NCBI RefSeq assembly: GCF_000007345.1
Contig: NC_003552.1
Span: 124,001-188,000, forward strand
From: Methanosarcina acetivorans C2A
Lineage (GTDB): Archaea > Halobacteriota > Methanosarcinia > Methanosarcinales > Methanosarcinaceae
DNA: 64,000 nt
Reading direction: 5' to 3'
Positions 23,568 to 27,912 of this stretch are shown piece after piece (position 1 is the stretch's first letter; the number at the start of each line of letters is the position of its first letter). The notes under the pieces were generated by a model, which saw only the letters and a program-made list of their open reading frames with translations, ran no database searches and was not told the DNA's origin. Position numbers and translations under genes: made by a program.

Positions 23568-24677
23568 TTGTTGATTCGCAAAAACGTTTCTTTAGATGAG
23601 GCTCACCTCCAGAAACTCCAGCCCCTGCTGGAAAAACATGGAGGGAATTTGAGTGCAGCTATACGTGAAGTCATCGACCTGGCCAGCCCTGATCCTGAAA
23701 GCCTCCGCACCCCTGAGGAAATGGCCGGAGATCTGAAAAATAGGAAATCCTCTGAGGTAAGGGAACAGCTTATTCAGAACGGCGAATGTGTAATGATAAG
23801 CCAGCAGATTCTGAAATGGCTTGTGAAAAACAGTTCTGGGAGGCTTATGGAAGAGGATATTGTGCACGAACTGCTCAATCCTTATCTCCTCACTACAGTT
23901 CCCGAGTTAAAGGAGTTCCTCAACAGTGCCAGTAAAACCGCGGGCTGGAAAATAGAAGTCTCCTGTTCTTTCAGGGGAGAAGTCGTGCCTGAATCTTTTA
24001 CCATGGATTTCGTTGGCGGAGACAGGGATTTTCGTGAGCTCCTCGTAGAAATTGTCTGTATTTTCCTCTCCCGCTGGATGGACTTGGATGTAGAGGCTCT
24101 GCACCGGAAGTCCAATTCGGTTACCGTGTACCTGATTCATTTTGTCCGGCATGAAAGCCAGAGTATAAGCCCCGGCGTCAGGAAACATTTCGGTGCTAAG
24201 GATCTCCTGTACAGGGAGATTGAACGAAAACCTGATTTCTGGGTAACCCTTGCAGAACTTTATACAAAGTTCAATTACCAGAGAGTAAATCTGGACAAGA
24301 GTCTTTTTGAAGCTCTTGTAGCCGGAAAGCTTCCTGATATAACAAAATATTTTGAGCTTAAAGCCGACCGTTCCCTCCGTGAAATCCCTCTTTCGGAACT
24401 TCTCCCGCTCTTTAAATACCTGGTAGTTGCCCCCCAGCTGGTAAACGATGTGGAAATATGTACCGAGAAAGGAAAAGAGCAGATAAAAATCCGGCATGAT
24501 TATTCTGAAGAGAGCGTGGTTTTAACCCTTATTCAGCTGTTTTCCAATGTATTTAATGCAGGCTGGCACAGTTTCACTGTGAACTATGTCTCTGAACTCA
24601 TAATATTCGATTTTTCTCTTCCTGATACTTCGGAACGGGACGCTGTAAAAGTTTCTTCCGGGCTGGATCTGGAATAA
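23568..24677 (+). CDS. Unrecognised protein with ribbon-helix-helix-like N-terminus, paralogue 1
   Basis: A 369-residue soluble protein. Residues 1-37 (IRKNVSLDEAHLQKLQ, then EKHGGNLSAAIREVIDLA) have the strand-helix-turn-helix pattern of ribbon-helix-helix DNA-binding proteins. The body matches no family I know. Two segments share a similar layout: about 130-195 (GWKIEVSCSF ... FLSRWMDLDVEALHRKSNSVTVYL) and about 290-350 (KIRHDYSEESVV ... LFSNVFNAGWHSFTV ... LIIFDF), suggesting an internally duplicated alpha/beta domain. Between them lies YQRVNLDKSLFEALVAGKLP, shared by all three copies. It starts at TTG 23568 or TTG 23571, with GAGG upstream. The likely role is regulation, possibly with a sensor domain; this is inference. 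Confidence 0.75.
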   Translation: MLIRKNVSLDEAHLQKLQPLLEKHGGNLSAAIREVIDLASPDPESLRTPEEMAGDLKNRKSSEVREQLIQNGECVMISQQILKWLVKNSSGRLMEEDIVHELLNPYLLTTVPELKEFLNSASKTAGWKIEVSCSFRGEVVPESFTMDFVGGDRDFRELLVEIVCIFLSRWMDLDVEALHRKSNSVTVYLIHFVRHESQSISPGVRKHFGAKDLLYREIERKPDFWVTLAELYTKFNYQRVNLDKSLFEALVAGKLPDITKYFELKADRSLREIPLSELLPLFKYLVVAPQLVNDVEICTEKGKEQIKIRHDYSEESVVLTLIQLFSNVFNAGWHSFTVNYVSELIIFDFSLPDTSERDAVKVSSGLDLE

Positions 24678-24798
24678 AATAACAAATTTTTTATATATCT
24701 CGGTCTTGTAAACTTACCTGTAGTCTTTAAGTTTGTGATATGTTTGCACTGCCAGAACGTTTGTCGAAAAAACACTTTTTATAAAGCAGGGATAAGCT

Positions 24799-25881
24799 TT
24801 GATCCGCAAAAACGTTTCTATGGAAGATGAGTACCTTCAGAAACTGCAGCCCTTCCTGGACAAAAATAACGGGAATCTGAGTGCTGCAATAAGGGATGCG
24901 ATAGAACTCGCAGATGCTGCTCTTCGGGGTCACGAGTCCGTAGAAGATGCTCTGGAATATTTTACGGAGGGCTCAACAAAGTATCCTGAGATCCGCAACA
25001 GCCTGATCGAGAGCGGAGAATGTATATTGATTAGCCAGCTTTCGTTCCGATGGTTGATTGAAAATACCGATGGGATACTGGTAGATGACGAGCTTGTAAG
25101 TGAACTTTTCAATCCTTATCAGATAAAGACTGCTTCGGATCTCCTGGAGTATCTCAATACACGTAGCCGGAATATGGGCTGGGGAATTAAAGTTTCTATC
25201 AACACCTTGCAGGAGGATAAAACCGAGGTAATATTGCTTGAAAACGGGGATCCCAGTTTGAGAGCCTATCTTGCTGAGGCAATCTCTATCTTTCTTGGCC
25301 GCTATCTCAACCTTGACGTTTCCTTTGTCCACCGTAAATCCAATTCAATCCGTATCTTTCTTAAGGAACACAGATCTGATATGGAGGTTCCTCCGGGAAT
25401 TAGAAAGAACTTCGGAACTCTTGACTATACCTTTAAGGAAATTCGAAGCAAGCCGGAATTCTGGACTTCCCTGGTGGAAAGGTACAGGCAGCAGAGGTAT
25501 CAGCGGGTAAACCTTAACAAGGATGTCTTTGAAGCATTTCTTTCAGGGGAGATTCCTGATGTTACAAGCTTTTTTGAGGCCTCTGCAGGCAAGCCTATCC
25601 AGGAAATTCCGCTTTACGAACTGTTTGCTATTTCCAAAAAATTAATTTTTGTTACTCAGCTTGCAACGGATGTTGAAAGGACGGTTGAGAGGGGCAAGAT
25701 AAACATCAAAATTCGGCATCAATTTTCCGATGAAATTGCTATTGAAAAACTTATAGCTCTTTTTTCAAAATTGTTCATGGCAGCAGGGCATGCATTTGAG
25801 GCCAGGACCGTATCAAATCTTATTACCCTCGAGTTCAAAGAACCCTGTTCTGCCTATTCTTCAAGCAACGGTAAATATTGA
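24799..25881 (+). CDS. Unrecognised protein with ribbon-helix-helix-like N-terminus, paralogue 2
   Basis: A 360-residue homologue of the preceding gene throughout. The N-terminus MIRKNVSMEDEYLQKLQPFL with NGNLSAAIRDAIELA is the most RHH-like of the three. Conserved marks: HRKSNSIRIFL, YQRVNLNKDVFEAFLSGEIP and the C-terminal KIRHQFSDEIAIEKLIALFS. The start codon is TTG 24799, as in the other copies; no ATG would keep the conserved first residues. The 121-base spacer before it contains tttatatatctc (about 24690), so it may have its own promoter. Confidence 0.75.
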   Translation: MIRKNVSMEDEYLQKLQPFLDKNNGNLSAAIRDAIELADAALRGHESVEDALEYFTEGSTKYPEIRNSLIESGECILISQLSFRWLIENTDGILVDDELVSELFNPYQIKTASDLLEYLNTRSRNMGWGIKVSINTLQEDKTEVILLENGDPSLRAYLAEAISIFLGRYLNLDVSFVHRKSNSIRIFLKEHRSDMEVPPGIRKNFGTLDYTFKEIRSKPEFWTSLVERYRQQRYQRVNLNKDVFEAFLSGEIPDVTSFFEASAGKPIQEIPLYELFAISKKLIFVTQLATDVERTVERGKINIKIRHQFSDEIAIEKLIALFSKLFMAAGHAFEARTVSNLITLEFKEPCSAYSSSNGKY

Positions 25882-27299: not shown

Positions 27300-27345
27300 G
27301 TTTTTGGCAGATAATTTCATATGCGGAAGTTTCCTATCACTTTTC

Positions 27346-27912
27346 ATGAGTGATGTAATTCTGCTCTGGGACTGTCCTCTCCTTTTTGAAAAATTGTTTG
27401 TGGAATACGGGCTTGAGTGCAGCCGAGCGCTCTCGACTTCCCTTGGTACTCCTTATCTGCCCGCCTGTAAGATCCTTATCTTGCCTACAGGGTTTGCCAA
27501 TAAACAGTATACAAAAACAGGAGTCGGGCTTGAACGCGGCAAGCGTTCCCTTGAAAGATTTGTGGCAAAAGGCGGAACCCTGCTCGTCTTCGGTCCCCTT
27601 GTCCCCGAATATGAGTATGAGTGGCTGCCTTTCTCCCTTAAATACGTAATGGAAGAAAACTCCTGCACACCACGTCCTGTGGGCGAGCATGAAGCTCAGA
27701 AACTTATCGAAAACATTGTCCCCCCTGCAGGATGCGACGGCTACTTTTCAGAAACCGATGCTGAAGTTGTACTTGAAGACGAAAGGGGCAGGCCTATTAT
27801 GGTCGCAAAAGGAATTGGGGAAGGCATGATTGTCGCAACCACAATCCATGAATTGCCAGCAGCCGAGTTTTTTGAGTGCAGGGCCGTATGTACGAGAAAA
27901 GTGAAGGCCTGA
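27346..27912 (+). CDS. Hypothetical protein, possible glutamine-amidotransferase-like (flavodoxin-type) fold
   Basis: A 188-residue protein from ATG 27346; the frame is open from 27262 but the upstream part overlaps paralogue 3. MSDVILLWDCPLLFEKLF, then CKILILPTGFANKQY, then LERFVAKGGTLLVFGPLVPEYEYEWLPF resembles class I amidotransferase-like or ThuA-like alpha/beta folds, in which a beta-strand ends in a loop with G-G-x-L-L-V-F-G-P. No catalytic cysteine triad is evident. It follows the RHH-like paralogues closely and may belong to the same locus. Its TGA is part of the first unit of a 15-bp tandem repeat. Confidence 0.6.
   Translation: MSDVILLWDCPLLFEKLFVEYGLECSRALSTSLGTPYLPACKILILPTGFANKQYTKTGVGLERGKRSLERFVAKGGTLLVFGPLVPEYEYEWLPFSLKYVMEENSCTPRPVGEHEAQKLIENIVPPAGCDGYFSETDAEVVLEDERGRPIMVAKGIGEGMIVATTIHELPAAEFFECRAVCTRKVKA

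Follow-up and report, generated by a model that had tools for sequence, protein, structure and literature searches.

Three tandem genes and their neighbor

The 64,000-nucleotide stretch of the Methanosarcina acetivorans genome analyzed here, referred to as the window (G000:C1:124001-188000, within a genome of one contig of 5,751,492 bp), contains three consecutive genes, designated A, B and C, whose products combine a ribbon-helix-helix (RHH) head with a body of two domains (D1 and D2). A fourth gene, at 27346, follows C after a gap of 46 bases. The features of this locus, all on the + strand and in window coordinates, are:

23568..24677, +: gene A, 369 aa, TTG start, RHH head + D1 + D2
23568..23687, +: RHH head of A, residues 1-40 (RHH_1, NikR and aCcr1 profiles, PDB 1q5v)
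23751..24176, +: D1 of A, residues 62-203 (AlphaFold model of D1 alone)
24177..24623, +: D2 of A, residues 204-352, with conserved His310 (whole-protein model)
24799..25881, +: gene B, 360 aa, TTG start, RHH head + D1 + D2
24799..24915, +: RHH head of B, residues 1-39 (basis as for A, plus aCcr1 E 0.028)
24985..25398, +: D1 of B (alignment with D1 of A)
25399..25845, +: D2 of B (alignment with D2 of A)
26169..27299, +: gene C, 376 aa, TTG start, RHH head + D1 + D2
26169..26288, +: RHH head of C, residues 1-40 (basis as for A)
26352..26774, +: D1 of C (alignment with D1 of A)
26775..27230, +: D2 of C (alignment with D2 of A)
27346..27912, +: neighbor gene, 188 aa, weakly BPL_N/amidotransferase-like

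All three genes are intact open reading frames initiated at TTG (for gene C the mechanical open reading frame opens upstream, at GTG 26106), and end-to-end alignment gives identities to A of 43% for B and 34% for C, which confirms the three tandem paralogues recognized in an initial sequence-only reading of this DNA. That reading had also assigned TTG starts with a gagg-type signal to the whole set; the starts hold for all three, and the purine-rich upstream signals are CGAGGATT-TTG for A, GGGATAAGCT-TTG for B and AAGAGGAACTCTGC-TTG for C, with an exact GAGG before the start of A and C only, not B. Similarly, the sequence blocks described as common to the set are present in A and B but take variant forms in C, where H-R-K-S-N-S is replaced by F-N-R-S-N-A and Y-Q-R-V-N-L-x-K by YQRLSMNK, and the C-terminal IKIRHx(Y/F)S block reads IKIRHDYS in A, IKIRHQFS in B and the divergent VKLIHDYS in C.

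Comparison with other Methanosarcina genomes gives dN/dS values of 0.10-0.20 for A, B and C (0.13-0.19 for A) and, from one computable pair, 0.10 for D, a fourth genomic paralogue described below. These values indicate purifying selection and working genes. TTG is retained in most of the A, B and C orthologues examined, with GTG for C in genus g7, and, unlike A, B and C, D and nearly all outside members of the family start with ATG; the conserved TTG starts are possibly a way of holding expression low.

RHH head and two-domain body

The head was characterized with a profile built from 28 divergent family N-termini. RHH_1 of Pfam is the commonest N-terminal match (in 10 of the 28, with E 6.6e-4 at best), aCcr1 and NikR are the NCBIfam matches, and the profile is colinear with the NikR structure 1q5v over residues 2-39 (E 0.009), with two designed TPR proteins scoring slightly above NikR over 18 residues only. 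Head matches of single proteins, including those of A, B and C, fall below curated cut-offs; B searched by itself matches aCcr1 at E 0.028. The segment is the best-conserved part of the whole family, with N27, S29, R33 and I36 invariant in 23 of 23 sequence clusters, and has the approximately 40-residue strand-helix-helix, matching RHH profiles, that defines the RHH superfamily; in the AlphaFold model of A it is monomeric and of low confidence (pLDDT 32-62). The RHH-like N-terminus first seen by inspection is thus borne out by the profiles and the 1q5v match, and the N-terminus of A to D is, as judged from sequence profiles, an RHH domain.

No family in Pfam or NCBIfam corresponds to the body of A, B or C, and searching A against the PDB sequences likewise gave no family for the body, in agreement with its earlier description as unassigned. 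The AlphaFold model of A, based on a 19-sequence alignment, has a mean pLDDT of 62 and contains two beta-beta-alpha-beta-beta units with pLDDT mostly of approximately 70-88; D1 of A modeled alone reaches pLDDT 71 and pTM 0.64, and both halves are modeled as alpha-beta-beta-alpha-beta-beta. Structure comparison matches D1 with BcsD (Z 8.0) and H-NOX (Z 7.2), and D2 (residues 255-357) with Bet3-Trs33 (Z 7.4), H-NOX (Z 6.3) and the MopR sensor (Z 5.5). These superpositions span approximately 90-110 residues at Z 5.5-8.0, where unrelated folds score alike, and Z <=8 is a range in which, as the tool warns, a match can reflect a common arrangement. Because a permuted ribosomal protein S6 and unrelated designed proteins score like the best matches, the resemblance of the D1 and D2 models to the H-NOX/Bet3/BcsD/V4R arrangement is tentative. 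Plain Foldseek against the PDB found no match at E 0.001 or better.

The sequence-only reading had proposed that the body is internally duplicated and forms a new sensor module. The repeat is seen only in the equal order of predicted secondary-structure elements and in the similar fold matches of the two models, and profile-profile comparison of D1 with D2 found no similarity; since the halves share no sequence similarity, the duplication is a proposal at the level of the predicted fold. A sensor-like body outside the library families likewise stands, but the models suggest that the fold is probably not new, being H-NOX/Bet3/BcsD-like. His310 of D2, which 17 of 18 sequence clusters retain, is from its conservation the best candidate for a functional site.

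Family members occur in 49 of the 393 phylum genomes searched, in three architectures:

RHH + D1: approximately 232 aa, family f9
RHH + D1 + D2: Methanosarcinaceae and the same-order families f2 and f3
RHH + D1 + D2 + third domain: 480-503 aa, f2 and f3

In the long relatives, the additional third domain matches V4R (PF02830) with hhalign probabilities of 88-93% (E 3e-6 to 5e-8) and also matches MetOD1 (PF18546) by profile; in one of these proteins (L072) both Pfam models reach E 0.0016, below cut-off. Membership of the V4R/MetOD1 group is accordingly assigned to this third domain and not to D1 or D2 of A, B and C, for which comparison with the V4R and MetOD1 profiles gave hhalign probabilities of <1% and no Pfam hit. 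V4R domains are associated with hydrophobic-ligand binding and are fused to transcription and signaling modules (PMC2253512), and MetOD1 has been likened to HNOB and V4R (PMC5847659). The presence of this domain in the relatives provides the main support for a sensor role of the family.

The fourth paralogue and a possible history of the locus

A, B and C are not a closed set, either in the genome or across the genus. The fourth paralogue, D (G000:C1:324636-325715, minus strand), lies approximately 1.4 kb beyond the downstream end of the operon for mtr (methyl-H4SPT:CoM methyltransferase). Many Methanosarcina species lack A and B or have them in decayed form, whereas C and D are found in nearly all. 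Judged by adjacency to B, A is kept in 13 of 31 Methanosarcina genomes, and orthologues of B with 70-89% identity occur in 13 other genomes of the genus. Four species (G001, G014, G016 and G017) carry remnants with stop codons upstream of C, which point to decay of extra copies.

In each of the 14 mapped D loci that show mtrH, D is found 3' of it in the same orientation, 0.87-1.55 kb away in the alignment, and the remaining three loci are too short to include mtrH; the gap of approximately 1.4 kb is illustrated by L091 (10716-12078). Known RNA elements of the Rfam type were found neither at the window locus nor in the mtrH-D gap. In Methanosarcina, rtcB adjoins D. The gene has its own conserved promoter region, in which a YGGTAGCACTTACCR palindrome beside a TATA-like box is kept across the genus and is degenerate in both g7 genomes. 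Genome-wide the palindrome has 1 exact copy and 5 copies with one mismatch (versus 1 for the reversed control), and it is absent from the window at <=2 mismatches; on these counts it was rejected as a regulon signal, beyond possible autoregulation.

Repeated linkage to mtr loses weight as independent evidence because the adjacency within the Methanosarcinaceae reflects one ancestral position and because the constant neighbor of the family member in L083 is a PAN-like ATPase gene, not mtr. Members from f2 and f3 lie beside rnf (L097, L099) or beside cytochrome/redox gene sets (L071, L073, L079), as named by reading translations, and these neighbors are a lead only.

In G032, from another genus of the Methanosarcinaceae, the sole family member lies between mtrH and a homologue of 27346, after which come a DUF1894-like gene, purM and a gene for aspartate kinase. 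In the tree this member is the outgroup to A-D (group support 98/89), a placement that is not certain because of its long branch. Two genomes in which the family is absent (L186, L196) have mtrH directly before the 27346 gene. The simplest history suggested by these arrangements is that a precursor RHH gene stood between mtrH and 27346 and underwent duplication, that the locus was afterwards divided, with D staying with mtr and the ancestor of A, B and C with 27346, and that A and B arose later beside C.

Proposed function and alternatives

We consider it reasonably probable that all four paralogues act as one-component transcription regulators with a sensor body, DNA binding and ligand sensing being predictions. 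The N-terminal RHH domain would dimerize and the dimer bind operator DNA, the ligand of the two-domain H-NOX/Bet3/V4R-like body would be a small hydrophobic or metabolic compound, or else a partner protein, and binding at the body would alter DNA binding by the head. This retains the earlier proposal of a paralogous set of DNA-binding regulators with a sensor, insofar as profiles and models give an RHH head and a sensor-like body. The likeliest direct target of each gene product would be its own promoter, and a role in controlling mtr or further genes of energy metabolism is no more than a lead. A wider version, in which the family is dedicated, in Methanosarcina and related archaea, to the ligand-dependent regulation of energy-conserving complexes (D acting on mtr and others on rnf or redox modules, with the A/B expansion beside C and D1/D2 forming a new sensor-domain family), is conceivable but unlikely.

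Several known systems share parts of this organization. NikR has an RHH head, to which that of A-C is related by profile and by colinearity with 1q5v, followed by a regulatory alpha/beta domain, but the body of A-C comprises two domains and approximately 330 residues with no NikR match in Pfam or NCBIfam, and hmmscan up to E 10 found no NikR C-terminal nickel-binding family in A, B or C. The small archaeal RHH regulators of the aCcr1/CdrS type have a head related by profile, and their models include no large body (the aCcr1 profile is 38 positions long). Phenol-sensing regulators such as MopR and PoxR follow the same logic of sensor plus DNA-binding output, and D2 resembles the MopR sensor at the score given above, but their output is of the bacterial sigma54 type in place of an RHH head and no sequence similarity was found. 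With V4R and MetOD1 the likeness lies in the third domain of the long relatives and in the similar helix/strand order of the D1 and D2 models; A-D do not have this third domain, and D1 and D2 show no detectable sequence similarity to either family. H-NOX gives structure matches to both halves (Z 5.6-7.2), but A-C have no HNOB match (to E 10) and do not contain the conserved Y-x-S-x-R, which is the H-NOX haem motif; HNOB proteins above cut-off were found nowhere in the genome.

An improbable alternative is that these are scaffold or assembly proteins, in which the RHH-like head only dimerizes and a BcsD/TRAPP-like body builds a particle or tethers proteins with no role in gene control. The top match of D1 is the assembly-forming BcsD of cellulose synthesis, that of D2 is the TRAPP subunit Bet3-Trs33, and some members adjoin membrane-complex genes, all of which would suit such a role; the strongest conservation falls, however, on the head with its RHH signature, and the V4R/MetOD1-like domains of the relatives point to signaling. 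Antitoxins and viral regulators are common among RHH proteins, and the same could be imagined here, but we disfavor an antitoxin or mobile-element regulator as extremely unlikely: there is no small toxin-like partner gene, chromosomal positions are stable across the genus, the bodies are long and conserved, and two scans of viral contigs found no relatives.

It also appears very unlikely that the RHH proteins serve as partners of the 27346 protein, or as its regulatory subunits, without acting on DNA. The amidotransferase-like look noted for this protein is in line with weak BPL_N matches of two homologues, and the association suggested from the window is real as adjacency, with a 27346 homologue following C wherever a C locus was mapped, and with the sole member in G032 placed likewise. 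It does not extend to co-occurrence among the 393 genomes, where 27346 homologues are present in 209, most without the RHH family, against 49 for the family itself; three f3 genomes carry the family and no 27346, and D and most outside members are not beside it. As the older and wider gene, often without the RHH family, 27346 is a conserved neighbor, not an obligate partner, and is best read as a neighbor by descent. The 27346 family is single-copy in most of its carriers, which make up approximately half of the sampled phylum genomes, and a homologue lies beside rtcB in three distant genomes (L193, L194, L197).

To our knowledge, little is known about the regulation of core methanogenesis genes, and M. 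acetivorans is genetically tractable. As candidate regulators, with D beside mtr wherever the mapped locus extends far enough to show this, the four genes would provide an entry to the control of methane-metabolism genes, and their sensor-like module has no Pfam or NCBIfam entry. Searches of full-text literature on RHH proteins together with V4R, M. acetivorans or methanogens, with most subscription journals outside coverage, gave no description of this architecture among the hits examined, and searches under guessed MA locus tags returned nothing relevant. We regard A-D as probably a combination of known parts (RHH and a probable V4R/H-NOX-like fold) in a family and architecture without description in the literature searched.

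Other genes around the locus are also of note. A DUF1894 gene (28362-28664, - strand, E 2e-32) adjoins it, and farther along the window a DUF1890 gene (30898-31356, + strand, E 5e-58) overlaps a second DUF1894-like gene (31353-31727, + strand) identified by reading. On the other side lie a TGT_C2 + PUA protein (22736-23269, - strand), which is like the C-terminal part of the archaeosine synthase ArcS, and a bactofilin-like protein (21267-22262, - strand, Pfam E 1.9e-7), here in an archaeon.
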